From a virus, in the IMG/VR virus record IMGVR_UViG_3300035701_000342, positions 1-21,451 of that record: a stretch of DNA of 21,451 nucleotides, one strand, 5' to 3'. Shown here one piece after another: positions 2,634 to 21,451 of the stretch (position 1 is its first letter; every line of letters starts with the position of its first letter). The position numbers and the translations under genes were made by a program. A model generated the notes under the pieces. That model was not told where the DNA came from and searched no databases. It saw only the letters and a list, made by a program, of their open reading frames with translations.

Positions 2634-2903
2634 ATGAAACGAATGGCGCCCGACAACATCATAACCAGGAGTTGGGGTAATTCCAAGGGTAGAGGTAAGC
2701 ATAGTGTTTCTGCGACCATTCCAACCCGGGCGGCTGGAGCGTTGGGGGTGGATCCGGGCAATTATCTAATGTGGCATATCGAATATGAACCCGGTATCCA
2801 TGTATCTGTACGAAAGGCCACGGCTGCCGAGATTAAGAAGTATCTCGATGAGCAGGCTGAGAATAGAAAGAATCGCCTTAAAGGGAAAAAGGAAATTCAG
2901 TAG
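2634..2903 (+). CDS. AbrB/SpoVT-like DNA-binding protein, 89 aa
   Basis: This is the only convincing plus-strand gene. Residues 20-62 fit the swapped-hairpin AbrB fold: strand (KHSVSATIP), then RAAGALGVDPGNYLMWHIE and a closing strand (IHVSVRKA). A basic C-terminal tail follows (KNRLKGKKEIQ). Such proteins are homodimeric DNA-binding regulators, or antitoxins when paired with a toxin; no toxin gene is adjacent. Its divergent position and the inverted repeats upstream suggest control of the leftward operon and of itself. ATG 2634 is chosen from the TATA spacing; ATG 2643 is an alternative. It ends 11 bases from the convergent FN3 gene. Confidence 0.75.
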   Translation: MKRMAPDNIITRSWGNSKGRGKHSVSATIPTRAAGALGVDPGNYLMWHIEYEPGIHVSVRKATAAEIKKYLDEQAENRKNRLKGKKEIQ

Positions 2904-8200: not shown

Positions 8201-9442
8201 CTATGTAAGTAATCCTTTGAGCGCGTCGATGACCTTCTGTGCGATTGTGTCCTCATCGGCATGATAGATGTGCTGGTTCACGACCATCCCGTTGCCCCCG
8301 TATGCGAATGAACCCGCACCCTCGGGCTTCACGGACATGTTATTCAGGCTTGAGGCAATGGATGGGACGCTGGCGCTGATGCCTTTTGCGTAGGTTTCGC
8401 CGAGGGTCTTGCCCCACTTATCGATGTCGTGGAGGGGGCCCTGAGGAGGCGGTGAAAGTCCTTTGAAGAAATTGCCGATGGTGTCGCCAATGTTCTTGCA
8501 TTGATCCTCGAGCCATTTCTTCGCCTTGGCCATTCCATCGGCGAAGGCCTTAACCAGGTTCGAACCCCACTCGCCGGCCTTGTCGGCTATTCCCTTGAAC
8601 TGGTTCCCGATCCAGGCGACGGCATCGCCCGCGCCCTTCTTCATTCCATCCCAGGCATTGCCCATCGCCTTGCTGACATTGGAGCACCATTCGGTAATGC
8701 CCTTCCAGGCGTCTCCTAGCCCTTTCTTTGCCCAGTTCCCAAAGTCGCCGAATGCTTTCGTGACCTTGTCCCAGTTCGTGATAAGAAGATAGATGACGGC
8801 TATGAGGGCGATGATGATGGCAATGATCCAGACTATGGGGCAGGCGTACATGGCGGCGTTGACGGCCCACTGCGCGGCCGCGTGGCCCCACCCGACGATG
8901 GTCGCCCATATCTCAGCGGCGCTCTTGCCGGTGATGGCGAGAAGGAGCTTCCCGAGGGCTAATGAGGATTGAAGATATGAGGCGTACATGGTCGCCATGG
9001 TCCCGATAAGTTGGAGCCCTGTCCCGAGCATACCTGAGAGAGCCGGATTCACCTTGCCGAGCCAGTCGTACATTCCCTTGAGCCCGTTCCCGATGAGATC
9101 GGTAGAGCCCTTGAAATTGGCTCCCCAGGACTTCATCTGCCCGCCGACATGGGCCAGGTTCTGGGCCATCAGAATCTGCTCCATGTTTGCGAGCTTGTAT
9201 TCCTTGTTCATGGTCTTGACTTCGCGGCCGTGCTCTATTGCAGCTTTGTTGGCGGTGGCGAAGGAGTTGGCGACCTTACCCGATGACGATGAGACCGCAT
9301 TGCCCATCCCTGTCGCGTCGCCGGCGGCTTCGTTGGCCTTATCCCCGAGGGACTTTATGCTGTCGCCGGCGCTCTTGAGCGTGTCGCTGGCCTCATCTAC
9401 GGCCTTGAGGAGTATTCCGACCTCAACCTGGTCTCCTGCCAT
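8201..9442 (-). CDS. Tail tape measure protein, 413 aa
   Basis: The sequence shows typical tape-measure features. The N-terminus is Ala/Ser/Lys-rich and helical (GDSIKSLGDKANEAAGDATG). Hydrophobic segments follow at 138-171 and 199-222 (CPIVWIIAIIIALIAVIYLL). Trp-containing amphipathic repeats come next (FGNWAKKGLGDAWKGI, AWIGNQFKGIADKAGEW), then the characteristic SPPPQGPLHDID and a Gly-rich tail. It sets tail length and is ejected during infection. At about 1.5 angstrom per residue, 413 residues would give a tail near 60 nm, which is short. Its start overlaps the end of the downstream chaperone frame by 20 bases, as in other tailed phages. Confidence 0.85.
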   Translation of the reverse strand: MAGDQVEVGILLKAVDEASDTLKSAGDSIKSLGDKANEAAGDATGMGNAVSSSSGKVANSFATANKAAIEHGREVKTMNKEYKLANMEQILMAQNLAHVGGQMKSWGANFKGSTDLIGNGLKGMYDWLGKVNPALSGMLGTGLQLIGTMATMYASYLQSSLALGKLLLAITGKSAAEIWATIVGWGHAAAQWAVNAAMYACPIVWIIAIIIALIAVIYLLITNWDKVTKAFGDFGNWAKKGLGDAWKGITEWCSNVSKAMGNAWDGMKKGAGDAVAWIGNQFKGIADKAGEWGSNLVKAFADGMAKAKKWLEDQCKNIGDTIGNFFKGLSPPPQGPLHDIDKWGKTLGETYAKGISASVPSIASSLNNMSVKPEGAGSFAYGGNGMVVNQHIYHADEDTIAQKVIDALKGLLT

Positions 9443-9716
9443 CTTGCCTCATCTGCTCCTTGAGCTTCTCCAGCTCGTCATATTCCGTATTGTCTATCTG
9501 AGCCAGTTCGTGCTGCGCCCTGGTTGCCGCGGGAAGGTCCTTGTCATCCCCCGAGGCCAGTTTCTCCTCTTCTGCGCCTTTGCCGACCAGGATGCCGTCG
9601 AACATGAGCCTGTCGAGCCCCGAGAGGTGGATACCTTCGGGGTCGAGGATCTGAGAGGGGAGCATCCCGAGTTTAACGGACATCAGGCCCGCCAGTTTGC
9701 CGTGAGGCGTCTGGGC
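9423..9716 (-). CDS. Tail assembly chaperone, second (T-like) frame read by frameshift
   Basis: This frame (stop at 9423-9425) overlaps the end of the first chaperone gene and lacks a convincing start. It is open upstream only to a TGA at 9818-9816. From AKPWANPFAQTPHGKLAG onward it reads as a real protein; upstream of that it is Arg/Ser-rich shadow. Lambda-like phages make a G-GT fusion here. Fusion at 9735-9713 would give about 230 residues. The chaperone coats the tape measure during tail assembly and is absent from the mature virion. Internal initiation at ATG 9683 is an alternative. The start coordinate marks the proposed shift, not an initiation codon. Confidence 0.6.
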   Translation of the reverse strand, partial: AQTPHGKLAGLMSVKLGMLPSQILDPEGIHLSGLDRLMFDGILVGKGAEEEKLASGDDKDLPAATRAQHELAQIDNTEYDELEKLKEQMRQDGRRPG

Positions 9717-10119
9717 GAAAGGATTCGCCCAGGGCTTTGCCCTCCGCACCCTGCGAGGCATCGACGAGCTTCTGGATGAGTTCGGACTTCTCAATCGCTT
9801 CCAGGTCGTCGACACTCAGATCGTCCTCGCCGGTGGCTACGGTCCCGCTTGGCATCAGGCGCGGCGAGACGGACATCGGGCGGACGACCTTGTCGAGTAT
9901 CTCGTCCAGATGCGCGAGCATCTTGGCGCCCAAGACCTCGCTCTTTGACGTGGCGATCTCGTCCATGCTGACGCCCAGGATGTCGAACACCTTCACGACT
10001 TCTACGGCATCGAGTTTTCTCAGTATGAAATCGGTGCCCATCTTCGTCGTGATGGTTATCCTCGGTCGGCTCTCGTTGTAAGCCTTTATCTTTTCTGCGT
10101 GCTTGTCCCTTGCGTTCAT
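9673..10119 (-). CDS. Tail assembly chaperone, first (G-like) frame, 148 aa
   Basis: The ATG at 10119 follows GGAGGAAGGGAA. The protein is acidic and helical, with a short beta start (PRITITTKMGTDFILRKLDA) and helices (MLAHLDEILDKVV, LSVDDLEAIEKSELIQKLV). This fits the G-type chaperones between tail tube and tape measure. It is followed by an overlapping frame that probably supplies a C-terminal extension by frameshift. Its leader contains the twin kink-turn-like hairpins, so its level relative to the abundant tail tube protein may be set post-transcriptionally. Confidence 0.75.
   Translation of the reverse strand: MNARDKHAEKIKAYNESRPRITITTKMGTDFILRKLDAVEVVKVFDILGVSMDEIATSKSEVLGAKMLAHLDEILDKVVRPMSVSPRLMPSGTVATGEDDLSVDDLEAIEKSELIQKLVDASQGAEGKALGESFRPDASRQTGGPDVR
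9713..9735 (-). other. Candidate programmed frameshift site (+1 or -2)
   Basis: On the minus strand the zero frame reads CTG GGC GAA TCC TTT CGC. Moving from the first chaperone frame to the second needs a +1 or -2 shift. Two candidates are visible: TTT-C at 9720-9717, where a Phe tRNA could re-pair with TTC after a +1 slip, and GGGCGAA (9730-9724), which recalls from memory the GGGGCGA site of phage Mu (-2). No heptamer of the common -1 type is needed or seen. Confidence 0.45.
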
Positions 10120-10162
10120 TTCCCTTCCTCCCTTCCTGCTATTGTCCTCGGTGGACTGTGAT

Positions 10163-10243
10163 GGGCTCGGGCTTTCGCCTTCATCGCCCTCGTGGGAAAG
10201 GCTACGAGCTTGATGGGCCTCGGGCTTTTGCCGTCATCGACCC
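10163..10243 (-). ncRNA. Twin kink-turn-like RNA hairpins in the chaperone leader
   Basis: The 163-base gap 10120-10282 has two copies, 52 bases apart, of a hairpin readable only on the minus strand. Copy A (10243-10215): GGGTC stem, GAT bulge, GA, C, GGC-AAAA-GCC, C, GA, GGCCC stem. Copy B (10189-10163): GGGC, GAT, GA, A, GGC-GAAA-GCC, C, GA, GCCC. This is kink-turn order: canonical stem, three-base bulge, tandem G.A pairs, one non-canonical pair, second stem, GNRA-type tetraloop in B. The copies differ by a tetraloop base, the non-canonical position and one inserted U-G pair, all structure-neutral. Archaeal L7Ae binds such motifs. Function is inferred; short frames here (11 and 22 codons) are not convincing genes. 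Confidence 0.55.
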
Positions 10244-10282
10244 CTCCGGGAAGGGATTTCCGAGGCCAATGTCGGAGCGTGA

Positions 10283-11251
10283 TCAGTTGTACGCGGGAGT
10301 CACGGTATTCTGGTAGAGTATGGTGAACGGATTCGTGCCCGCCACCGGGAGGACCATCTCATACTCGATGTTCTCGATGGTCCTGTCGCGCTTGTTGATG
10401 TTCGCCTTGTGTGTGTTGTAGATTGCTTCCACGATCTGGAACTTGAGGAATGGATACGCCGTTGCTCCGGCCAGCTCGTTGTGGATGAGCTCGATTGCGA
10501 TCGCCTGCGGGGTCAGGTAGACGTCCGGCGCGAGTGCGGTCGATTTGCCCATGAACATCTTCCACTGATCTATTGCATCGAAGAACAGGTCGATGGTGCC
10601 CTTCACGGTCAGCTCCTGGAAGTTGCAGGAGTAGAGAGTCCTGTTGCCGTGGGCGAAGTCGTCCTCCGTGACCTTGTTCTCAATCTCCATCGTCATGCCC
10701 TTGATGCGGGCGATTGTTGCGCCTCCTATCTTGCAGAGGGCGTGGACGTTGTGATAGGGCTTCTTGATGGAGAAGGTGGGGGTCGCCAAAGAGTCTATGA
10801 GCATCGTCTTGCCGACGGTTTCCCACTCGCAGAGGACCTTTCCCTTGGGGCTCAGCGTGACCTTGAGCTTCTTGGCGATGGAGCCCGGCATGGACTTCTG
10901 TCCTGCGGTTACATCGCCTCCTACGGCGAGCGTGAGAGGCTGGGAGGTCTGCGAGGGGATCATAGTATGCAGGTAGACGCCTGCCTCGGTGGTGGTGATG
11001 GTGTCAGAGGCGGAACCCATGAGAGCGTGGAGGAGCCTTCCGATGTTCTCGGTCTCGGCGTAGCACTTGAAGCCGCCCTTGACCTTTGCCGGGCCGGGTA
11101 CGGGCTTCTCCTTGTATCTCGTCCCCATCAAAGGCTCAGCATCGACGCTGTTGTCGATGCTGTAGCTCTCGTCGAGTGCGTTGATGTAGTCCGTGAGCGA
11201 GACCTGCGTTCCGTATACCGATTCCTTTCCTACCCCGATAAATCGTGCCAT
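10283..11251 (-). CDS. Major tail tube protein, 322 aa
   Basis: The ATG at 11251 follows a very strong AAGGAGGGATG site, consistent with high expression. The opening (ARFIGVGKESVYGTQVSLTD) matches the GxESxYGT pattern of siphovirus tail tube proteins. Residues 45-300 are beta-rich with strands ending in Lys/Glu, and the C-terminus is strand-rich (NIEYEMVLPVAGTNPFTILY). The position between the terminator-like gene and the chaperones is the classic slot. Subunits stack as hexameric rings around the tape measure. Confidence 0.8.
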   Translation of the reverse strand: MARFIGVGKESVYGTQVSLTDYINALDESYSIDNSVDAEPLMGTRYKEKPVPGPAKVKGGFKCYAETENIGRLLHALMGSASDTITTTEAGVYLHTMIPSQTSQPLTLAVGGDVTAGQKSMPGSIAKKLKVTLSPKGKVLCEWETVGKTMLIDSLATPTFSIKKPYHNVHALCKIGGATIARIKGMTMEIENKVTEDDFAHGNRTLYSCNFQELTVKGTIDLFFDAIDQWKMFMGKSTALAPDVYLTPQAIAIELIHNELAGATAYPFLKFQIVEAIYNTHKANINKRDRTIENIEYEMVLPVAGTNPFTILYQNTVTPAYN

Positions 11252-11252
11252 G

Positions 11253-11597
11253 TCATCCCTCCTTGAATTCGTCTTCCATTACGGCCGGCGCGGCCCTCCG
11301 GTAAGTCTCCAGCGACGCGACGAACTGCGCTTCCTTCTCGGCCCTTGCGGGCTTGAGCCCCTCGACCGCCTTTATCTTCGCGTCTGCGGCCGCTCCGGGA
11401 TCCTTGCCCGCTGCATCGAGCGTGTCCTGGATCGCTTTTGCGTCCTTGAGCTTGACCTCGATGTAGATGGGGTCGTCCACGAACAGGTCGTCGAAGATGT
11501 CCTCGACCATGAACGGAACACCCCACTTGATCGGGTGCGGGAATTGGACCTTCATGCATTCTGTTGCTCCTCCGACATAGACATATATTTTCGGCAT
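11253..11597 (-). CDS. Small virion-module protein, 114 aa
   Basis: The ATG at 11597 follows AGGAGGAAGA. Residues 1-50 are beta-rich (KIYVYVGGATECMKVQFPHP, WGVPFMVEDIFDDLFVDDP). The pattern of a hydrophobic GVPFxVxD strand followed by a helix occurs, from memory, in small proteins of phage head-tail modules. Residues 52-114 are Ala/Lys/Glu-rich helix. It is placed between tail terminator and tail tube, only one base before the latter, which suggests coupled translation. The function is unknown. Confidence 0.6.
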   Translation of the reverse strand: MPKIYVYVGGATECMKVQFPHPIKWGVPFMVEDIFDDLFVDDPIYIEVKLKDAKAIQDTLDAAGKDPGAAADAKIKAVEGLKPARAEKEAQFVASLETYRRAAPAVMEDEFKEG

Positions 11598-11609
11598 TCT
11601 TCTTCCTCC

Positions 11610-13907
11610 TCAGATTGTCGTTGACTTCCTGTATTGGCATTCGAGCAATACGAAATGGAGCGTGACATCGCCGTGGCCGATCGGCGGGCCTTTGATGAAC
11701 TCGGAGAAGGTGATGATGGTGCCGCCGTTGACGAGAACCTTGTGGTTGTCGGCGAGCAATTCAGCTTCGATTTCTTCCGCGAGGTCCACGGCGAGCTTCT
11801 GGTCCTTGCTCGGCGAATGGCCCATGACATAGACCTGGAACTCGATACCGATAAGAGCGTCCTGGAAGTCGCCGCTCATCCCATCGACATCCAAGGGAGC
11901 GCGGGAGATGCCGACGAAGACGCCGGCCTTGTACTGGGACGCGAAGAACTCGGGGAAGGTTCTTGTTCCGTACTCGATGGCGTTGTCGAAGAGAGCGGAG
12001 AGGTTCGTTTTGGTGGAGGCCGCCAGGATAGTGATAATATCCGTGGCGACGGTGTTCCTTCCGACCGCTACGGATGCGCCCGAGGTGTCGAAGACGAGAA
12101 CGGCATTGATGCAATCGATGTGGGCTCCTACAGCCATGTTGGTGAAGTAGAGGTACGGTACTGAGGTTCCTACGCCTTGGATGGCTCCCGTTCCGGTTAT
12201 CGTACCTGAATGGGCTCCGGGGGTGTTCACGGTCGCGGAGTTGTCGAGTAAGAGCGAGCCGTAGACGATGAGGGTTCCGGAGCAGGTGGAGTTTGATACG
12301 AATATCACGTGACCGTTGAGGTTGACCTGGAGGTTGGCGTTCGCGGCGACGGCGAAACCCGCGGAGGAGACGCAGTAATCGGAGAAGGTGATGGTGTCGA
12401 GGGCAACGACGGAGACGCCATCCACGGTGACATTGTTCAGAGCGATGGTCTTGCCGGTGCCGGGAGTCGTGATGGTGAACTGAATGTCCACCTTGGAGAA
12501 GGTGCAGGAGGACCAGGTCCAGGTCCCGGTGTTGGCGAGCACCGTGGTCGTGGCGGACCCGCCGCTGATGACGGTGCCCGCGCCCATCGTGAAGGTGCTG
12601 CCGTTGCTGAATGTCTTACTGGCGGCCAGGTTCAGCGTCACGGCCGCCGAGGTCGTGCAGGTGAATGTATGGGTGGCGCTGATGGTGAAGTTCTGGAGGT
12701 TACAGTCTCCCGTGATATTCAAGGCACCCGCATAATGGCCACCGTAGTCAGTCGTGAGATTGTACTGTATGTCGAGCCATTTCAGATTTGCTACGGCATT
12801 GGTGCCCGCCCATTGAAATCCAGTATTCCCCGAACTTGTCACGACGCATTTGTATGACACACTTGCGCTCTGAAATGTCACGCCACCAGTAATTTTGAAA
12901 TCGATATAACCGCTGTTCATTACTATCGTGGCAGCAGCGGAAGTCGTGCCCATCGTGACTGTACAGACTCCTTGTGCTTCCCAATAATTAGGCCCGTTGA
13001 TTGTTAGGTTGTGTTCTATGGTTATGTTCTCATCATAATAGCAGCTTACCGTCAGAATATCATAGAATACGGCACCACCCGGATGAATGCTCCCGACACC
13101 GGATATTACATTTAACTTTCCATTGTCGTGATGATAGTCACCGTTAATATCCATAAGGCAAGCGCCAGCATTCCCAAATTTGAATTCCCCTGCTCCATTT
13201 GGAGCGTATACTGCTCCTCCGACCGCCAAAACAAAAGTGTTAGTTTGTATCCAGGTCCATGCCACATTTACACCCAATGTCCCGCCGTTGTTGATGGTGT
13301 TGGCGCCGTCGAACTGAAACACGCTCGTCGCCGACGGTATGACTGACCCGCTGATTGAAGACGCTCCCCCGACCAAGATGTCCCCGCCGGCGTCCATCGT
13401 CAGAACGCAGGAAGCGTTCGATGTGAAGGTCCCCGCCGTTATCGTTATGCTCCCGCTCCCAACTGATTTGTCGATGATGAGGGATTTCGTGGCCAGCGAA
13501 ACCGTGTCCCCGCTCGCGAGGTCCGTCCCGCCTCCGTCCATGTTGTCGGCGGTGGGCGCGGCCTTGGTGTTGCCGTCCACCCAGGCGGTCATGCCGGCGA
13601 CGAATGGGATGAGGTGATGCTGGCCCAGGACCTGGACGAGGACCATGAGGGCCACGATGCCGGCCACGGCGCAGGCCGTCCGCCTCCGCAAGTACCAGGG
13701 CGTGTAGATTTTAAGTCCGCCGCCCTCGGTCTGGACCTTCCGTTGGTTCCATCTCATTTTGAAAGGCCTGGTCCGGTCAATGCGCCTGAGTTCGAGCCGG
13801 AGTTTGATGGCGTCCAGGACCGGGAGCTCAAGCCGGCGGGTCGGCGCCTTCGAGACCGTGGTGGATACCTGCTGGCAGAGGAATAGGAGGAGCAGGATGG
13901 GTATCAT
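11610..13907 (-). CDS. Membrane-anchored beta-helix fused to tail-terminator-like domain, 765 aa
   Basis: The ATG at 13907 overlaps the upstream TGA (ATGA) and follows GGAGGGCAA; the open frame beyond is Gly/Arg-rich shadow. Hydrophobic segments lie at 1-10 (MIPILLLLFL) and about 77-95 (CAVAGIVALMVLVQVLG), separated by a basic stretch. Residues 130-630 are short Gly/Ser/Thr/Asn-rich strand repeats typical of a right-handed beta-helix. Residues 635-765 (11613-12005) are globular (ALIGIEFQVYVMG, KLAVDLAEEIEAELL, DVTLHFVLLECQYRK) and resemble tail terminator proteins, whose syntenic slot this is. A terminator is normally about 130-200 residues, so the 630-residue extension is exceptional. The part at 12750-13260 is AT-richer than its flanks. 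Confidence 0.6.
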   Translation of the reverse strand: MIPILLLLFLCQQVSTTVSKAPTRRLELPVLDAIKLRLELRRIDRTRPFKMRWNQRKVQTEGGGLKIYTPWYLRRRTACAVAGIVALMVLVQVLGQHHLIPFVAGMTAWVDGNTKAAPTADNMDGGGTDLASGDTVSLATKSLIIDKSVGSGSITITAGTFTSNASCVLTMDAGGDILVGGASSISGSVIPSATSVFQFDGANTINNGGTLGVNVAWTWIQTNTFVLAVGGAVYAPNGAGEFKFGNAGACLMDINGDYHHDNGKLNVISGVGSIHPGGAVFYDILTVSCYYDENITIEHNLTINGPNYWEAQGVCTVTMGTTSAAATIVMNSGYIDFKITGGVTFQSASVSYKCVVTSSGNTGFQWAGTNAVANLKWLDIQYNLTTDYGGHYAGALNITGDCNLQNFTISATHTFTCTTSAAVTLNLAASKTFSNGSTFTMGAGTVISGGSATTTVLANTGTWTWSSCTFSKVDIQFTITTPGTGKTIALNNVTVDGVSVVALDTITFSDYCVSSAGFAVAANANLQVNLNGHVIFVSNSTCSGTLIVYGSLLLDNSATVNTPGAHSGTITGTGAIQGVGTSVPYLYFTNMAVGAHIDCINAVLVFDTSGASVAVGRNTVATDIITILAASTKTNLSALFDNAIEYGTRTFPEFFASQYKAGVFVGISRAPLDVDGMSGDFQDALIGIEFQVYVMGHSPSKDQKLAVDLAEEIEAELLADNHKVLVNGGTIITFSEFIKGPPIGHGDVTLHFVLLECQYRKSTTI

Positions 13908-14338
13908 TTGCCCTCCTTGAGCGCGGCCTCGGCGCAGGCCATGACAATGCCCGGCTGCCGGGCCAGGAGCATCGTCTTGGCCCAGATGTGCGCCGGCCGG
14001 GCCCGGACCCTTCTGCCGGTGTCGTGGCCCCAGGCGATATTCCTGTGGCCCCCGTAGACCCACTTGGCGTAGTAGACGGTGGGGCCGACTATGAAACCAT
14101 CGGGGAGTTTGAAGATGTCGATGCCTGTGACCAGGTCCCCGGACTGGCGTTCAATATACGGCGAAGACGAGAACTGCACCATGAGCGTTCTCGCCTGGAG
14201 CGCCATGGTCTGGTTGTAGAGTTCGAGGAACCGGGGGATGCGCTCGGCCCTGATCGATGTGATCACCCGCATGGCCTCGTCGATGTCCACCTTCATGACG
14301 AACAGCGGATTTGTTGCTGAAGGTGGAGCGGTCGTCAT
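13904..14338 (-). CDS. HK97 gp10-like neck/head-closure protein, 144 aa
   Basis: The ATG at 14338 abuts the TAG of the upstream gene. A helix (AERIPRFLELYNQTMALQAR) is followed by GDLVTGIDIF, IVGPTVYYAKWVYGGHRNIA and RARPAHIW. The pattern of a G-P-x-x-Y-A-x-x-x-x-x-G turn followed by R-x-R-P is that of HK97 gp10-type neck proteins, which usually read G-x-x-Y-A-x-x-x-E-x-G and P-x-x-P. It would lie at the head-tail interface. Its end overlaps the next gene by four bases. Confidence 0.7.
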   Translation of the reverse strand: MTTAPPSATNPLFVMKVDIDEAMRVITSIRAERIPRFLELYNQTMALQARTLMVQFSSSPYIERQSGDLVTGIDIFKLPDGFIVGPTVYYAKWVYGGHRNIAWGHDTGRRVRARPAHIWAKTMLLARQPGIVMACAEAALKEGK

Positions 14339-14530
14339 CTATCTCCTCGAGGGGCAGTTCTTGTTCGTGATGACCACGGGCTGCCCGTCCCTGGCCCCAC
14401 ACTGTTCCTTGAGTTCGTCGTCCCACTTGACCCCGCCCGGGAAGCGCTGGCGGCCGCCGATGTGCCGGACCTGGCGCTGCATGAACTGGCCGAAGTCCAT
14501 GCCTATCTTTCTCCCACGGAACATGACCAC
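14339..14530 (-). CDS. Small head-tail module protein, 63 aa
   Basis: The GTG at 14530 lies directly after the upstream TGA with GAGGTGGA about 6 bases before it; an ATG two codons later is a less well-spaced alternative. The product is basic, with MDFGQFMQRQVRHIGGRQRF, two cysteines (QCGARD, NKNCPSRR) and no recognised fold. It sits exactly between two connector-type genes, so it may take part in head closure, but this is inferred from position. Confidence 0.55.
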   Translation of the reverse strand: MVMFRGRKIGMDFGQFMQRQVRHIGGRQRFPGGVKWDDELKEQCGARDGQPVVITNKNCPSRR

Positions 14531-14959
14531 TCAGTCCACCTCGTTGAAAGTGTCGGGTTCGCTGGCGTCGATTTCGAGTCTCCTGGCGGTGCGGGTGTTG
14601 CGGAAGAAGCTTGAGCGGCGGGAACCTGTGGCCCCGTAATGCGAGCCGATGAATGATTGGAGCATCTGCTCGGCCCTTTCTCGTAGGATGTGCTTCTTGG
14701 TCCGTTCGCCCTCAACGGGTTGCGTAGTCTGCTCCTTGAAGAACCCCGCGGCCATGTCCGCCTCTATCTGGCAGATGAGGTTCGTGTCTCCCGTGCTGAG
14801 GCCGGTGAGCGGAATAGCAGGGGCCGTGACGACAAGAATGTTGTTCATGAAGTTGTAGGCCTTGTCGCGGGCCTCGGTAAGTTCGGTATCGAAATCGCTG
14901 TTCGTGGTGGCGATGTTGGCGGCCTGCTTGACCCGGACGAGGTCGGCGTTGTAGGCCAT
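14531..14959 (-). CDS. Head-tail connector (gp6/gp15-like adaptor), 142 aa
   Basis: The ATG at 14959 shares a base with the upstream TGA (TGATG) and follows GGGGTGCGACCTG; a GTG at 14974 inside the previous gene is less likely. Residues 1-100 are helical (YNADLVRVKQAANIATTNSD, LTEARDKAYNFMNNIL, NLICQIEADMAAGFFKEQ, HILRERAEQMLQSFI) in the four-helix arrangement of HK97 gp6 / SPP1 gp15 adaptors that dock under the portal. The C-terminal tail (residues 110-142) is polar and basic, then acidic. Its position after the capsid genes agrees. Confidence 0.65.
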   Translation of the reverse strand: MAYNADLVRVKQAANIATTNSDFDTELTEARDKAYNFMNNILVVTAPAIPLTGLSTGDTNLICQIEADMAAGFFKEQTTQPVEGERTKKHILRERAEQMLQSFIGSHYGATGSRRSSFFRNTRTARRLEIDASEPDTFNEVD

Positions 14960-15708
14960 CAGGTCGCACCCCACTGTTTCAGTAGTTCGAGCGCCTTATC
15001 GAGGTAGGCACTATCGCCGAGGAGTTTCTCTATCTCCGCATCCAGGGCCGGCTTGATGGTTTTATCCCATTCCTGGTCTATCCAGGCCTTGGCGGTGGGA
15101 TTGGCGTAGAGGGCGTCGAGGCTATGGATGAGCCCTTTCAAGAATGCCGTTGGGCTCTCCTTTCGATAATATTTGTCCCAGAACCAAGCAGTGAGAATTA
15201 TGGCCATCCCAGACCAACCAATTACGATGAGCAGGTGATCCACTGGTGCCGGATGCCAGGATGCCTCGTTCGCTTCCTCCGCGGTCTGGTTGTGGGTCGT
15301 GTTGTTGGTCGATTCCGCACCTGCGACTATGACGAATCCGCCGGTGGTGGCGTATTTGACGATGCTTCCCCCCGCGGCGGCGATCACGAGGATTATAGCG
15401 ATGAAAGTGAGGAACTTGAAGAACTTGTCCCAGGGGATTCTACCCTGGACTTCGAGACCCGAGATGTCCCCTTCACCGTTCGAGCTGGAGAGGCATGCGG
15501 TGCCCTTGCTCCCTGTCGCCGGCGTTGGGTGGGCCTGAGCTATGGGTGAGGAGCAGTGCGTCTGGAAGAGCTTGGCCTGGTGCTCCTGAGCGATTGCGAC
15601 CAGGTCCACTTTCCTGGCGACGAGCGCCAGGACCCGCGGCTGGTCTTGCTTCGCCTTCTCGTAGTAGGCCTGGAACTTCGTATCCTCGTCTATGATTGTG
15701 TCTGACAT
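14959..15708 (-). CDS. Two-TM membrane protein inside the head module, 249 aa
   Basis: The ATG at 15708 has AAGGAGA upstream. Residues 97-117 (FFKFLTFIAIILVIAAAGGS) and about 157-177 (DHLLIVIGWSGMAIILTAWF) are transmembrane segments. The loop between them has two N-glycosylation sequons (N136-T-T and N140-Q-T), which would suit an extracytoplasmic loop. The N-terminus is charged and soluble; the C-terminus (190-249) is helical and acidic (DAEIEKLLGDSAYLDKALEL). Membrane proteins are unusual between capsid and connector genes. It might be a holin-like, entry or exclusion protein, or a virion component. No family is recognised. Confidence 0.65.
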   Translation of the reverse strand: MSDTIIDEDTKFQAYYEKAKQDQPRVLALVARKVDLVAIAQEHQAKLFQTHCSSPIAQAHPTPATGSKGTACLSSSNGEGDISGLEVQGRIPWDKFFKFLTFIAIILVIAAAGGSIVKYATTGGFVIVAGAESTNNTTHNQTAEEANEASWHPAPVDHLLIVIGWSGMAIILTAWFWDKYYRKESPTAFLKGLIHSLDALYANPTAKAWIDQEWDKTIKPALDAEIEKLLGDSAYLDKALELLKQWGAT

Positions 15709-15746
15709 TTATCCGGTCTCCTTTCCTTGACGGCCCATTCGGGTCG

Positions 15747-15752
15747 AAAAAA
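15747..15752 (-). terminator. Oligo-T tract, possible archaeal terminator
   Basis: On the minus strand TTTATCTTTTTTCG lies in the 61-base gap after the 104-aa gene and before the membrane-protein gene. Archaeal RNA polymerase terminates at oligo-T runs, so this could lower expression of genes downstream of the capsid gene. A weak promoter element is the alternative. Confidence 0.3.
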
Positions 15753-15769
15753 GATAAAGGTCGCCCGCG

Positions 15770-16084
15770 TTAGCGGACGACACGCTTTGCGACTTTCCCG
15801 GGCGGGATGTGCCTCACCTGGTTCTGGGCGAGCAAGGCTTGGACTTCCGGCGTGATTTCGGCATTGACATCGTAGACATTCGGGAATGGGCATTCCATGT
15901 TCGCCCGCACCTGTGCCTCGGCTTCCGGGGGAACATTATTTTCCATTGCATCCCGGTTGAACCGCAGGTTCACCGTGTTTCCCTTGCCGTCCTTGTAGGT
16001 CGCCTGGAACTCTTTCGCCTCGTCGATGAGACGCACCCTGAGCGGGTTCTTCTCCGCCTGTATATTTTTCTTTTCCTCCTGCAT
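15770..16084 (-). CDS. Small head-module protein, 104 aa
   Basis: The ATG at 16084 follows GGAGGTCA, a strong ribosome binding site. The frame stays open to 16576, but that part lies inside the capsid gene and is a shadow. The product starts with a Lys/Glu-rich helix (MQEEKKNIQAEKNPLRV), then a strand pair (KEFQATYKDGKGNTVNLRF) and a Pro-rich acidic part ending in a basic tail (GKVAKRVVR). No family is recognised. Location directly after the major capsid gene suggests a minor head or packaging role. Confidence 0.6.
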   Translation of the reverse strand: MQEEKKNIQAEKNPLRVRLIDEAKEFQATYKDGKGNTVNLRFNRDAMENNVPPEAEAQVRANMECPFPNVYDVNAEITPEVQALLAQNQVRHIPPGKVAKRVVR

Positions 16085-16167
16085 TGACCTCCTACCTGTC
16101 CCTTCGGACTGTGAAAGAGGAGAGGGTGGTTTCCCGCCCCCTCCGGATGGTGGTGTCTTGTCCTCCT

Positions 16168-17055
16168 CTATGCGCCCGTGATCTTGCCGACGGAGTTCGC
16201 CTGGAACACTGCCGGGGCCACGCGCTCGTAGACCTGGCCCTGTATCCAGTGGTCGATGTTCATGTCGAAGAACTCGACCGTGATGTCCTCCGCGACGACG
16301 AGGCAGGAGTTCTGGTCGCCCGGTTGCATGATGATGGGAGTCCCATGGGTCATGCTCGGGTCCCCGATGACCTTCTGGATCGGAAGGCCTGCGAGGATGA
16401 GTTCGAGCTGGCTCCGTGCGCTGCCGCCCGCGACGACTTCGCGCTTCCTCATCTCGCCGAGGTTTATCGGGTCCACGGCCATGATGTATGGCCCCATGAA
16501 TCCGTCCGCCTCGTTGAGGGCGATGAGGTTGTTGGAGTCCTCGTAGGGTATCGCGGTGCCCGGAACTGCGGACCACACGGACGACGCGGCTTGGCTGTTG
16601 CCCGCTGCGCCCAGAAGTCCGTTGACGACCGGGTAGGTCGCGCCGTTGTAGATGAGGTCGTTCTCACCCTCGCTGACCTGCCTGGCGGCGCTCTTGGCGC
16701 TCCGCTCCTTGGCGTTGGACTTTGCGAAGAGGTCCGTGGTGTATATCTCGAAGGGGCGCCGCAACATCGGGATGGGCACCAGGGTCTGGAGGGTCTCCTT
16801 CAGCTCGTCCTTGGTGAGGGCGCTCGTGCGCCGTCCGCCGATGATGGCGTCCTGCATCTGGGTCTCCAGCCAGAACCCGAAGAACTCCGCGTTCTTCTCG
16901 ACGAGGTTGATGGGCAGGAACTCCCTGCCGCGAAGGTTCGGGAGAACCGTCTCGGTGATGTCCTGCTTGAGGGCGCGGATGTCGTCCTGGGTCATGATGC
17001 TGTTGAGACCGCTCCGGATGGCGCGGTCCGAGAACACATGGCGTATGTCTTTCAT
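16168..17055 (-). CDS. Major capsid protein, encapsulin-like HK97 fold, 295 aa
   Basis: The ATG at 17055 follows GGTGAGACC. The N-arm and spine helix (LKETLQTLVPIPMLRRPFEI) precede the P-domain helices. Residues about 195-290 have the order of encapsulin/linocin-like capsids: IMAVDPINLGEMRKREV, ARSQLELILAGLPIQKVIGD, a strand pair (TPIIMQPGDQNSCLVVAEDI), VEFFDMNIDHWIQGQVYERV and a closing AVFQANSVGKI. Such proteins form the icosahedral shell. Decoration gene, protease-scaffold and portal lie upstream in normal order. Confidence 0.8.
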   Translation of the reverse strand: MKDIRHVFSDRAIRSGLNSIMTQDDIRALKQDITETVLPNLRGREFLPINLVEKNAEFFGFWLETQMQDAIIGGRRTSALTKDELKETLQTLVPIPMLRRPFEIYTTDLFAKSNAKERSAKSAARQVSEGENDLIYNGATYPVVNGLLGAAGNSQAASSVWSAVPGTAIPYEDSNNLIALNEADGFMGPYIMAVDPINLGEMRKREVVAGGSARSQLELILAGLPIQKVIGDPSMTHGTPIIMQPGDQNSCLVVAEDITVEFFDMNIDHWIQGQVYERVAPAVFQANSVGKITGA

Positions 17056-17059
17056 GGTC

Positions 17060-17506
17060 TCACCACAACCTGACGACGACCTTGTCGCCCGAAGCGCCTG
17101 CCGTTGTCAGGCACCTGCCCACGCCCGCCTGGATGCCGGCAAACGAGGCGGCTTCCGTCAGGACGTAGTACACCGTGGTCGTGCCCACGGACACACGCGT
17201 TCCCGCCGTGATGGCGGCGTCTGCCTTGACGCAGACGAGCCCATCCATGATCACGGGGACCCGGTCCCCGCTCGCGAAGGCGGTCGTTTCGGGCGAGCCG
17301 ACTGCAAGGGCGCTGTAGTTGAGGTCTGCAACGCCTATGCAGAGGGTATCACCGGAAGCGGTCACGATGACGCGCTCCACGCCGGCGCCGTACTTCACCA
17401 GGTTGCCCGGTGTGATGGCGCCTGCCGCGACGAACTCCGCGACTATGAGGTTGGCCCCGCACCGGATGGCGGTGGTGGGGACAACTATCGAAGTCTTTTG
17501 TGCCAT
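17060..17506 (-). CDS. Head decoration-type protein, 148 aa
   Basis: The ATG at 17506 has GGAG about 15 bases upstream, a weak site; coupling to the protease gene is possible. The protein is small, beta-rich and Ala/Gly/Val/Thr-rich (GAITPGNLVKYGAGVERVIV, TASGDTLCIGVADLNY, ALAVGSPETTAFASGDRVPV, AGTRVSV). This composition and location immediately before the capsid gene match decoration proteins of the DUF2190/gpD sort, which bind and stabilise the expanded shell. The exact family is not certain. Confidence 0.7.
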   Translation of the reverse strand: MAQKTSIVVPTTAIRCGANLIVAEFVAAGAITPGNLVKYGAGVERVIVTASGDTLCIGVADLNYSALAVGSPETTAFASGDRVPVIMDGLVCVKADAAITAGTRVSVGTTTVYYVLTEAASFAGIQAGVGRCLTTAGASGDKVVVRLW

Positions 17507-17532
17507 GACGTTCTGGTCTCCGTTGTGCCCCT

Positions 17533-19035
17533 CTACTGATGGGGGCTGTCCGCCGTGATCGGCTTGAAGCTCAGGGGCTTGTAGAGCTTCTGCGTCGCGG
17601 GGATGTCGTCCTCGGCGTTGGCGCCGGGGGCGGGTGCGGTCTTTCCGGCCGGGACCTTCAACTCTTTCGAGCTGTGGGCCATGGGCGGGGCGGGGGCGTC
17701 GGCGGGCGCTGCGTCCTCCGAGCCCAGGGTGTCCACCAGCGCCAGTGAGCGGTCGATCTCCGCATCGCTGACGCCGGCGAGCTGGTCCTCGGGGAAGATG
17801 GCCTTGAAGGTCTCCTCCCCGTAGGACTCCTTGAGCCTGGCGAGCTTCGCCTGCCGTTCCTCGGCCTTCATCTTCTCTATCTTGGCGATGGCCTCGTCGC
17901 CGTCCTTGACCTTCTTGTTGAGGGCCAGGGCGGCGGTCTCCAGGTCCGTCACCTTCTTCTCGGCGGCGGCCTTGGCGTCCACCAGGGCCTTGACCTCAGC
18001 GTTGAGGCCGGCGATGGTGGCGAGGTTCATCTCCTTGACAGAGGGGGCGTTGGATTCCGGTGTCTTCTTGTCGTCGTTTCCCAAATCTGTAACCTCCTCT
18101 TGAGTTGGATGAGAATGAGAGCAGCCGGCGCAGTTGCAGCCGACCTTGTCTTTCGTATTGCATCCGATGCCGCAAATCGGGGGGGCGCACTGGGGCTCGA
18201 AACCGTCCAGGAGCGCGAGGTGGTAGGGGTTCACATCGAGCTCGAGGTGGTCGTAGTTCTCGCCCAGCGCTTCGCCGACCTGGTCCTGGTGAGCGTAGAA
18301 GTAGCCGATGGAGAGGCACTTGAGCTGGCCGTTCTTCATCTGCTCGATGAGGCGGGTCTGGTCGTTGCCGGCGCGGTCCTGCTTGAGGACTACGATGTCG
18401 GCATTGGCCCTGGCAAGGCCGGCCTTCTCGTCGCCGAAGGCGTTCTCGGTATAGCCGATGACCGGGAAATTCTCATCGGCGAGATTGGCGGCGGTCACGC
18501 CGACTGTGGTCGGGTCCGGATGGTTGACGACGACGCGCAAGCCGTTGCAGAACGGGACCATCTTGCGGACCTCGTCGGCACTCCGGAAGCCCTTGCTCTT
18601 GCCGTCGGGCGTGGTGAAGATGCCCTCGGCGGCGATGGGCACCTTGGGGAACCGGACCCGGTCGCCCTCGTCGACGGCCTCGACATCGTTCAATTTGGCA
18701 TTTATGCAGACATTACGAGTCTCGAAATCCAAGGCATTCAGGCTCAAATCGTCGATTGAAGGGAGGGAATCCTTTCCAGAGGCTGGCTCGATCTTTTGAT
18801 AATCCTCGACACCATATTCCTTGAGCCAGGCCTTGACTTCCGCGATTGTATAGAGCTGCCTGGGGAACCAGTAGGAATGCGCCTCCATGGTGTCTTTGCC
18901 CCGGGGGCGGCCGAGATTAATGATGACGCCGCCTTTCCCACCCTTCGATTTCGGGAGAAGCTTCCTCCGGATGCTATCTTTCTCGAATGCGCTCTCGGGT
19001 CGGACAATGACGACATGATAATTATCGTATGGCAT
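17533..19035 (-). CDS. Prohead protease fused to scaffold domain, 500 aa
   Basis: The ATG at 19035 overlaps the portal stop (TAATG). Residues 1-80 are a small alpha/beta domain often found ahead of phage proteases (RPRGKDTMEAHSYWFPRQLY, IAEVKAWLKEYGV). Residues 105-280 carry the DUF2213-type protease: H172 in VVVNHPDPTTVG and S242 in LKCLSIGYFY are the probable catalytic pair, followed by YHLALL. A cysteine/histidine cluster at 283-309 (C283, C288, C292, C300, C302, C305, H307, H309) may bind metal. Residues 335-415 are a scaffold-like coiled coil (LDAK-type repeats). It would guide shell assembly, then cleave itself and its partners. Confidence 0.7.
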   Translation of the reverse strand: MPYDNYHVVIVRPESAFEKDSIRRKLLPKSKGGKGGVIINLGRPRGKDTMEAHSYWFPRQLYTIAEVKAWLKEYGVEDYQKIEPASGKDSLPSIDDLSLNALDFETRNVCINAKLNDVEAVDEGDRVRFPKVPIAAEGIFTTPDGKSKGFRSADEVRKMVPFCNGLRVVVNHPDPTTVGVTAANLADENFPVIGYTENAFGDEKAGLARANADIVVLKQDRAGNDQTRLIEQMKNGQLKCLSIGYFYAHQDQVGEALGENYDHLELDVNPYHLALLDGFEPQCAPPICGIGCNTKDKVGCNCAGCSHSHPTQEEVTDLGNDDKKTPESNAPSVKEMNLATIAGLNAEVKALVDAKAAAEKKVTDLETAALALNKKVKDGDEAIAKIEKMKAEERQAKLARLKESYGEETFKAIFPEDQLAGVSDAEIDRSLALVDTLGSEDAAPADAPAPPMAHSSKELKVPAGKTAPAPGANAEDDIPATQKLYKPLSFKPITADSPHQ

Positions 19036-21451
19036 TATTCGCCACCTCCGCTGGCCTGGGCTTCTGCGACCCACTGATCATAGATGGAGAGCGGGACGAT
19101 GGTGCACCGGCAGCCGTAGTCGCTGAGGTACGGCATCGCCTCGTCCCGGGTCACGACCATGCCCTCCATGGCGGCGTGCTCGGGCCTGACCCGGTCATCC
19201 CGGGCGGTGGTGAAGACGCCCTTGTCCACGCCGAGCTCCTTCATCGTGTCCCAGCGGGCCTGGCTCGCGGCCTCGTGGACGACCTTCTGGACCGTGGCGG
19301 GGATGCCGTCGCCGAACTCGGTGAACTTCTTGGCGATGCGGTCGTTTATCTGGGCGTAGGATTCGCCGTTCTTGAGGCCCTCGGCGATCTCCATCATGGC
19401 GTCCTTGTGGGTGTCGAGGTAGGTGTTCTTGCCCAGGGTCTCGCTCGACGCCTGGATGAGCTTGATGGTGTTCGTGTCGCGGAGCTTGCTGATGTCGAAC
19501 TGCTCCCCGATGTTCTGCGCGGTGGATTCCGCGCCGGAATCATAGGCCGACCGAACGAAGGCGTCGAAGGCCTTCTGGAACGAGGTCCAGCCGGACGGCT
19601 TCCAGCTCCCCATTTCCTGCAGGACGGCGGCGAAGTCGGGGATGGCTGTGTTGGCGTTCGCGCCCGGGGCGGAGGCCTTGCCGGCCGGCGGTGTGTGGCC
19701 AACGGGCCCGGCGTGCTTCTCCCAGGCCTTCTTGAGGTCGGCGAGGATCTGCGCCTCGAGGACCGTGGTCAAGTTGCGCCAGGCGTCGCCGAAGGCGCTT
19801 TCCAGGGCCTCGGTCTTCTCGTACCACTCGCCGTAGAGCTGGGCGTGGACGGCGTCGTTGAGGAGCGGCCGGCGGTTCTCTATGGGCTTCTGGGAGATCG
19901 CGGCCTTGGGCGGTTCCTGGGCCTGCTGCCGGCCCGGAGGCTGGGGCGGGCCCGTTGGGGCGGGCGGGGCCCCGGGCGGGGCGCCTGGCGCAAACGGCGG
20001 GGCTCCTGGAACTGGAGGCGCTGCGGCCGGCGCCGCCGGCGGCTTGACCTCGACGGGGGCTTTGACATCCGGTGCGGCCTCGAGGAGGTCTGCGCCCGCC
20101 TTGAACTTGATGACGATGTCGCCCTTGACCCAGTAGAGATGCTCCTCGATGTTGAAGAGCCGCCACCCGGCGGTCTGCATCAACGAGATCGTGGAGGCGA
20201 TCGAGGCGAGAGCCTGTGCCTTGGAGGCCTCGATGAGACCCTTTTCCTTGTCGTCCATTTCGTAGAGCGCGGCCCATTCGAACTTGTCCTTCCCGGGCGG
20301 GATGATTTTCATGTCCTCGAGGCGCTTGTTGAACTCCCGGAGCATGGGTTCGACGACATTCTTCTGCTCGTCGGCGACCGACACATACCACTCGCCGATG
20401 TTCACCTGGCTTCCGGTGAGGGCGCCCGCTTCTGCGCCCAGGAGAGCGACCTTGCTGCCGAGGCTGCCGGCCGCAAGGGTCTGGAGCATGTAATCCGTGT
20501 AGGGCTTGGGGTTGAGGACATTGGTGGGGCCCTCGAACTTGAGATCATATCCGGTTGGCATGATGAAATGTGATTTAATGTCGATGTTGTCGAGTTCTCC
20601 ATCTGCGGCGTCCATTTCATCGTCGTCGGCATCGTCGGGGAGCGTGAGAACGGGGAAGGGCTTGGCCGTGGAAATCATGACCTCGCCGATTGCGTAGTCC
20701 ATGTTTTTCTTGACGGTGAACTTGTCATAGAGCGTCTCGAATATCGAGATGCCTTTTGGATCGTCGTCGATGAAGTCGTTGCGCCAGTGGAGGAACCTTG
20801 AGGCCGGGAAAATCTTTTCTGTCGGCTGGCCCATGCTGGTCTGGTCCTTGCTGCCGACGGGTTGCTTGATGGTGTAGGCAGTGATCTCGCCGTAACTATC
20901 GGAGAGCGGGTCGAGGTCCTCGTGGATGAGGGAGACGGCCGTGGACGGTATCGCGTGGAGGTAGTCGATGCCTGAGACGGTGGTGGGCTCCTTGGTGGCG
21001 TCGGGGTTCGGCTCGATCCAGCCGAGGGCAATGAGCCCGAACCCGTCTGCTTTCGATAGCATATAGGCGCGCTTGAAAATGCCCTTGACATTTAGATCGG
21101 CGTAGATTTCCTCAACCTTTTTCTGGCGTTCGATGTTGTCGGATGTGTAACTGAGCCATCGGTTGAACACGGCGCCGGTCCACCTCATCAATGTGCGGTA
21201 GGCGAGCTCGTCGCGGCGGATGAGATAACGGATGTCTTCCTGCGTGATGTTCTGCTCGAAAGGGCTGCCCCATTTCTGGGGCCTTTCCCGGGAAGCGCTC
21301 TCTTCCTGGTTGGGGAAGAAACGACGACTTCGGCCGCTATTGAATTTCAAGGTGGTCCGGCGTATTCGAGAAGAAGGCGTGGGTGGGCGGCCGGACCGAT
21401 TCGCCCTGGCGGAATTGCCTGGGGCCTTGATTATCGGTGACCCTGCCCCGG
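19035..21451 (-). CDS. Portal protein fused to MuF-like head domain (5' end at or beyond right edge)
   Basis: The frame is open to the right edge. The only in-frame start codon inside the window is TTG 21350 with no ribosome binding site, so the true start is probably outside. Counting from the TTG, residues 30-425 match the portal (RDELAYRTLMRWTGAVFNRW, ADGFGLIALG, DYLHAIPSTAVSLIHEDLDP, SRFLHWRNDFIDDDPKGISI, GALTGSQVNIGEWY). Residues 436-505 are a Pro/Ala linker. Residues 510-771 are a MuF/SPP1 gp7-type domain (ARDDRVRPEHAAMEGMVV, YGCRCTIVPLS). Portals are dodecameric DNA gates; the fused MuF domain is usually a separate minor head protein. Confidence 0.75.
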   Translation of the reverse strand, partial: GAGSPIIKAPGNSARANRSGRPPTPSSRIRRTTLKFNSGRSRRFFPNQEESASRERPQKWGSPFEQNITQEDIRYLIRRDELAYRTLMRWTGAVFNRWLSYTSDNIERQKKVEEIYADLNVKGIFKRAYMLSKADGFGLIALGWIEPNPDATKEPTTVSGIDYLHAIPSTAVSLIHEDLDPLSDSYGEITAYTIKQPVGSKDQTSMGQPTEKIFPASRFLHWRNDFIDDDPKGISIFETLYDKFTVKKNMDYAIGEVMISTAKPFPVLTLPDDADDDEMDAADGELDNIDIKSHFIMPTGYDLKFEGPTNVLNPKPYTDYMLQTLAAGSLGSKVALLGAEAGALTGSQVNIGEWYVSVADEQKNVVEPMLREFNKRLEDMKIIPPGKDKFEWAALYEMDDKEKGLIEASKAQALASIASTISLMQTAGWRLFNIEEHLYWVKGDIVIKFKAGADLLEAAPDVKAPVEVKPPAAPAAAPPVPGAPPFAPGAPPGAPPAPTGPPQPPGRQQAQEPPKAAISQKPIENRRPLLNDAVHAQLYGEWYEKTEALESAFGDAWRNLTTVLEAQILADLKKAWEKHAGPVGHTPPAGKASAPGANANTAIPDFAAVLQEMGSWKPSGWTSFQKAFDAFVRSAYDSGAESTAQNIGEQFDISKLRDTNTIKLIQASSETLGKNTYLDTHKDAMMEIAEGLKNGESYAQINDRIAKKFTEFGDGIPATVQKVVHEAASQARWDTMKELGVDKGVFTTARDDRVRPEHAAMEGMVVTRDEAMPYLSDYGCRCTIVPLSIYDQWVAEAQASGGGE

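Follow-up and report, generated by a model that had tools for sequence, protein, structure and literature searches.

L7Ae is known to control the translation of archaeal host genes through k-turns in their leaders, and it represses its own mRNA by folding a GAU-bulge leader k-turn over the SD (PMC5539422, PMC6298567). The GAU bulge is present in all published l7ae leaders, and by the published rules a C:G pair at −1b:−1n, a C at 3b or a G at 3n favours folding without L7Ae (PMC5539422, PMC6298567). In Sulfolobus infected with STIV an increase of L7Ae protein has been reported (PMC3518317), and some connection of L7Ae with infection is therefore not implausible. A search of the literature, open papers only, gave no viral mRNA k-turn controlled by L7Ae. 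The locus described here could be one, a lineage-specific L7Ae-type cis-regulatory k-turn that directly follows the tail tube cistron in a late polycistronic mRNA of the virus, an assignment which seems evenly poised and in which binding and regulation are inferred.

The window, by which is meant the whole stretch of DNA analysed, is a 21.4-kb IMG/VR contig (21,451 nucleotides) with the minus-strand order tail tube, a 163-nt gap (10120-10282), a chaperone-like gene and tape measure (Table 1). Read as minus-strand RNA the gap holds two tandem k-turn hairpins. An earlier note on this DNA had proposed two hairpins of kink-turn order here, and the sequence is as it described, a full descriptor matching twice, save that the GATGA cores lie 53 nt and not 52 bases apart; the U-G pair inserted in one copy and the loss of a shared reading frame between the copies are both real. 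The simple kink-turn sequence features are all present in both copies, with C-stems of 4-5 bp and the terminal loop on the NC helix. When relatives are included, all five distinct elements place a 3-nt bulge between a Watson-Crick C-stem and the tandem G.A/A.G, and the GGC/GCC NC-stem follows a non-Watson-Crick 3b.3n position. Invariant across elements are the GAU bulge, GA/GA and C:G at −1b:−1n, and it is 3b.3n that varies (C.C, A.C, U.U, A.G). Before k-turn 2, CUCGU...ACGAG (10189-10208) takes the same position as CUCCG...CGGAG before k-turn 1, and the hairpin downstream of the k-turns has the counterpart GUCC-UCGAC-GGAC in the relatives.

Table 1. Features of the tail gene region of the window, in window coordinates.
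Feature	Coordinates	Strand	Basis or remark
Tape measure protein	8201-9442	-	PHROG tail families
Tail assembly chaperone	9673..10119	-	downstream neighbour in window only; position and conserved frameshift extension
Possible mini-ORF, 22 codons	10116..10184	-	AUG inside k-turn 2; UGA overlaps chaperone AUG (AUGA)
Downstream hairpin GUCC-ACCGA-GGAC	10144..10156	-	predicted probability 0.99
AUCA directly 3' of k-turn 2	10159..10162	-	
K-turn hairpin 2	10163..10189	-	GGGC GAU GA A GGC GAAA GCC C GA GCCC
K-turn 2 parts			C-stem GGGC/GCCC, bulge GAU, tandem GA/GA, 3b.3n A.C, NC-stem GGC/GCC, loop GAAA
Possible mini-ORF, 11 codons	10202..10237	-	AUG inside k-turn 1; GGAGG 5 nt upstream
AUCA directly 3' of k-turn 1	10211..10214	-	invariant in 5/5 elements
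K-turn hairpin 1	10215..10243	-	GGGUC GAU GA C GGC AAAA GCC C GA GGCCC
K-turn 1 parts			C-stem GGGUC/GGCCC, bulge GAU, tandem GA/GA, 3b.3n C.C, NC-stem GGC/GCC, loop AAAA
Possible upstream hairpin CUCCG...CGGAG	10244..10277	-	by eye; free energy not in favour, probability near 0
GGCCUCGG	10260..10267	-	can pair with CCGAGGCC (10216-10223), displacing k-turn 1
Tail tube protein gene	10283..11251	-	constant upstream neighbour; Pfam Phage_tube_2, E 1.4e-17

With a strict k-turn descriptor (C-stem at least 4, NC-stem at least 3) the gap gives 2 matches against a mean of 0.008 per dinucleotide shuffle, and since none of 4000 shuffles held two or more, an origin by chance is unlikely. In 1.77 Mb of DNA, both strands, a GAU-bulge descriptor matched 9 times; six of these matches are the window element and its homologues, and among the remaining 3 one comes from a locus chosen by its k-turn-like pattern. 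The exact core pattern gave a single match in IMG/VR (L002), inside coding sequence and without a C-stem. A looser core pattern gave 33 stretches there, of which the real ones are four relatives of the window and the others lack a proper C-stem or lie on unrelated contigs; in the other IMG/VR core-pattern matches (n=29) a 4-bp C-stem occurs in 3, the stem being mostly 1 bp. The looser pattern is absent from 390 Thermoplasmatota genomes, BLASTN of the leader against phage records gave no match, and an Rfam search of the gap gave none at the gathering level. Free folding of the whole leader yields a stability that is not unusual (z −1.0 and −1.1), and so leader stability is no argument for the element.

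One window copy probably arose from the other by duplication; the pair is then not independent, and the relatives are better evidence. Four IMG/VR contigs with tail tubes 71-87% identical each carry one k-turn directly after the tail tube stop, and so the description "two tandem" holds in the window, where the duplication is private, and not in these viruses. Their k-turn is of the window's class with a different C-stem, reading GGAGCC GAU GA U GGC..GCC U GA GGCUCC in L003/L006 and L004, and in L005 the same except for A and G at 3b and 3n. Pairing was counted loop-free over the 4 distinct sequences, a descriptor scan and pair counts standing in place of a covariance model. The cells of the C-stem and NC-stem are 100% paired across these forms as against 33-55% in slid controls, and double compensatory changes are found at two of the six C-stem pairs (UG, GC and CG at one, GC and AU at the other), none being broken. 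A C-stem compensation score equally high arose in 24 of 500 shuffles, and since the sequences are few and this control is only moderate, the compensatory changes are support and not proof. It nevertheless seems probable that a k-turn-forming element is real here and under selection.

The 60-nt block holding the element shows 96% identity when L003 is compared with L004 and 91-95% in comparisons with L005, with about 61-90% identity in the tail tube gene on one flank and 46-75% in the gene behind the block. Between L004 and L005 the block together with the small gene behind it is 91-100% identical versus 46-76% in the flanks; judged by these identities the two are a recent joint exchange, and so this pair is weaker evidence. 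The small gene, which lies between tail tube and chaperone (L004:7084-7359, L005:3959 onward), has 98-100% DNA identity with flanking genes only about 70% identical, and the window lacks it. A DNA-level hot spot, an exchange point or DNA motif at which conservation reflects recent recombination and not selection on RNA, would account for the G002 versus G003 comparison (block and small gene 91-100%, flanks about 46-76%) and for the point inside the tail tube gene at which the window, until there nearly identical to G001/G004, becomes divergent. A k-turn in the window copies, diverged as they are, would not be expected from it, and it is the block alone that L003 and L004 have in common, not the gene behind, which leaves such a hot spot distinctly improbable.

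Beyond these viruses the element stops: L142 (tail tube 39% identical, 143-nt gap) and L188 (38%, 58-nt gap) have no such k-turn, and four further relatives with tail tubes 25-27% identical have hardly any gap. The element is, by these comparisons, confined to one virus clade, and its absence from L142, L188 and more distant viruses indicates that the k-turn is not essential for tailed archaeal viruses. At L142:14480-14500 the k-turn-less gap carries AUCACGGUC and then a hairpin ending in GAC, a site which corresponds to the place of AUCAC(R)GUCC-N5-GGAC in the window and relatives.

The hairpins had been described as the leader of the tail chaperone gene, which the relatives contradict, for in all four another small gene follows the element (79-92 aa, without a family match) and the chaperone comes further downstream. 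With a different gene following in the relatives, the neighbour that stays constant is the tail tube on the upstream side. This arrangement brings in the main rival explanation, mRNA punctuation, by which an L7Ae-bound k-turn, through processing or as a barrier to exonucleases, would mark or protect the tail tube transcript at its 3' end without a direct effect on initiation, and would give abundant tail tube RNA and less downstream RNA. It accords with the tail tube stop codon being constant while the gene downstream varies between viruses, and with a gap sitting between a high-copy and a low-copy product. On the other hand no processing site or terminator signal was identified, and conservation in the relatives runs beyond the k-turn as far as the SD of the next gene; punctuation seems rather unlikely, if still the reading to set against regulation. 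As to the neighbourhood itself, in the window the chaperone and an overlapping second frame (9423-10119, minus strand) seem to be linked through a frameshift of +1 (or −2) at CC-UUU-C near 9720, and the second frame, of 93-97 aa, is similar in the window, L004, L005 and the distant L142, with TTT C at each shift. A small frame opposite the virion genes (2634-2903, plus strand) resembles by eye a short DNA-binding regulator, its Pfam match being sub-threshold only (HTH_Tnp_1, E 0.054).

Within the k-turns a GGAGG-N5-AUG overlaps the structure in 4 of the 5 elements, and so the k-turn may gate an upstream mini-ORF. Because GAU-GA forces an AUG, only the GGAGG spacing and the AUGA overlap are informative here, and not much so. 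Were these the starts of a real short protein, a small conserved or leader peptide, the well spaced SD-like GGAGG in four of five elements, the beginnings MTAKAR/MKAKAR in the window copies and the ending of the second mini-ORF in AUGA at the chaperone start would all be expected of it. The mini-frames of the relatives however continue beyond the next start and would encode peptides with no relation to one another, the AUG is unavoidable in GAU-GA, and a one-base indel between L004 and L005 shifts the frame with RNA pairing kept. A conserved peptide was rejected on the unrelated sequences and the shifted frame, and a real short protein from this AUG is very improbable. The expectation that pairing and not a peptide is conserved is thereby upheld, since in the relatives the stems and GA pairs persist even though the frame begun by the AUG is shifted. 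As for the annotated gene downstream, its SD is outside the k-turn, about 30 nt beyond it.

Predictions of secondary structure complicate the picture in a way that the earlier note did not foresee, in that the core alone folds to both stems and upstream sequence competes. In the window k-turn 2 is predicted 96% formed, and k-turn 1 and the competing helix GGCCUCGG/CCGAGGCC have about equal predicted probability (0.47 for the k-turn, 0.48 for the competitor). With 45 nt of upstream sequence included, the predicted cost of the k-turn is 9.0-11.5 kcal/mol in L003-L005 and 2.7-5.3 in the window, and in L004 the competing hairpin is formed by CGACAUUGGCC with GGCCAUGUCG. As the protein-free RNA is predicted to prefer the competing helix, the k-turn of the relatives probably needs L7Ae. 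A protein-driven switch is possible on these models, and it is also possible that the other helix is what matters. If it were, the functional structure would be the alternative hairpin (CGACAUUGGCC/GGCCAUGUCG in L004, GGCCUCGG/CCGAGGCC in the window) or an ordinary GC-rich fold, and the k-turn incidental. The lower free energy of that hairpin for naked RNA in L003-L005, where by inspection substitutions also preserve the helix, speaks for it, as does its strength against shuffled upstream sequence, unusual in L004 (0.006) and L003 (0.034). The same control is not significant in L005 (0.11), k1 (0.18) or k2 (0.22), and the helix differs between the window and the relatives; moreover an incidental k-turn leaves unexplained both the invariant GAU, GA and GA with a variable 3b.3n and a window k-turn with different stems. 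Such an account is improbable.

If the k-turn is the functional structure, a partner for it would be expected from the host. The G004 provirus is flanked by a tRNA-Val gene without encoded CCA and a host gene whose best matches lie throughout Thermoplasmatota (80% identical to VGTL01000055), and from this flank the host lineage would be Thermoplasmatota. The inference extends to the window because its head genes are 97-100% identical to those of G004. The reference genome of Thermoplasmatota type giving the VGTL01000055 match encodes L7Ae and Nop5, and so the earlier expectation of an archaeal host lineage with L7Ae is supported by the provirus flank and this genome; of the six viral records, some of which are incomplete, none encodes either protein. 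Among the l7ae leaders examined from the presumed host class, 4 of 4 carry a GAU-GA k-turn immediately ahead of the start codon (7% of background windows), for example GAU GA C GGCCCC..GGGGCC U GA GGGAGG. The viral and host-lineage l7ae hairpins have in common the GAU bulge, the GA pairs, the polarity and partly the GGC/GCC start of the NC-stem, and this likeness makes L7Ae the natural partner of the viral k-turn. Binding of the viral k-turn by host L7Ae in the cell is thus somewhat favoured. A tail tube profile search of the 390 Thermoplasmatota genomes and GTDB contigs gave no provirus.

Some observations on the integration and mosaicism of these viruses stand beside this. The integration of G004 at tRNA-Val (L027:17946-18020) is next to a host gene resembling coaBC, and G002 and G003 have a tRNA-Val 3' end beside the integrase (L022:60-160, L024:15900-16000) that is probably attP. 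Three places share the 12-mer TTTCCCACGGAG, one near attP, one opposite the integrase start and one immediately ahead of the k-turn (L022:72 on the minus, L022:1174 on the plus and L022:15032 on the minus strand, with equivalents in L024, L026 and L027), a recurrence which may be chance or may mark a shared protein site. The near-identity of the window to G001/G004 (97-100%) covers the head genes (11253-21350) and falls to only about 45-55% in the tail genes, which on sequence comparison looks clearly like a mosaic joint with its breakpoint inside the tail tube gene.

Overall the best single reading is that occlusion or coupling controls the cistron downstream, a reading which we would accept or doubt with equal readiness and of which the details are less certain. 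Host L7Ae would bind and lock the k-turn, displacing the competing helix preferred by the naked leader; the bound hairpin would hide the GGAGG and AUG within it and act as a roadblock at the boundary of tail tube and downstream cistron, and the downstream cistron would then be translated less relative to the tail tube. A possible route is that a short upstream ORF coupled to the downstream cistron would be stopped, the UGA overlapping the chaperone AUG in the window. More tentatively, the leader might toggle between competing helix and L7Ae-bound k-turn, so that the host L7Ae level would set downstream expression, possibly via the mini-ORF. Counted against control of the downstream cistron are the strong viral C-stems with C:G at −1b:−1n, unlike switch-type l7ae leaders, the few independent sequences and a downstream SD that is outside the k-turn. 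If true, this would be the first viral mRNA element known to us that draws on the L7Ae control circuit of the host. A virus would then be seen to tap that circuit, L7Ae would have a natural target besides the sRNP and ribosome genes, and the tuning of late genes in archaeal viruses could be tested in a simple way.

Among known systems box C/D sRNAs are alike in that L003/L004 read GAUGAUGG...CUGA, close to RUGAUGA/CUGA, and in that the weak sub-threshold Rfam matches are C/D families (E 0.18 and 0.78). They were rejected because there is one C-like/D-like pair per unit with no C'/D' pair, and because the Rfam scores are far below gathering (18.4 versus 40, 12.3 versus 42). TIGR-Tas arrays, the Nop-domain systems of phages and archaeal viruses (PMC12045711), likewise have short tandem C/D-like units in a virus; here PF01798 is found in 0 of 6 viral records, some incomplete, with no Nop/Tas protein, and there is no dual-repeat array with 9-nt spacers but one or two units only, and so these too were rejected. 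From the l7ae leader k-turn (Daume et al. 2017, PMC5539422; Huang et al. 2019, PMC6298567) the viral k-turn differs in belonging to a late mRNA and not to the l7ae gene, in being tandem in the window, and in a C-stem of 4-6 bp with C:G at −1b:−1n where l7ae leaders have 1-2 bp. Its SD-like motif is on the 5' side and is not the SD of the downstream gene, so that the overlap is with the GGAGG of the mini-ORF only and not, as in the l7ae type, with the SD of the regulated gene. Nor does an inability to fold without L7Ae apply, since C:G is at −1b:−1n in all, and some copies with C at 3b (k1) or G at 3n (L005) are predicted to fold in metal ions alone; a competing helix may, on the folding models, be another route to L7Ae dependence. 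What the viral and l7ae elements have in common is an archaeal mRNA hairpin with a GAU bulge and tandem G.A/A.G, a short NC-stem (GGC/GCC in several), an SD-like sequence beside or within the k-turn and, for the host-lineage leaders, the same polarity.
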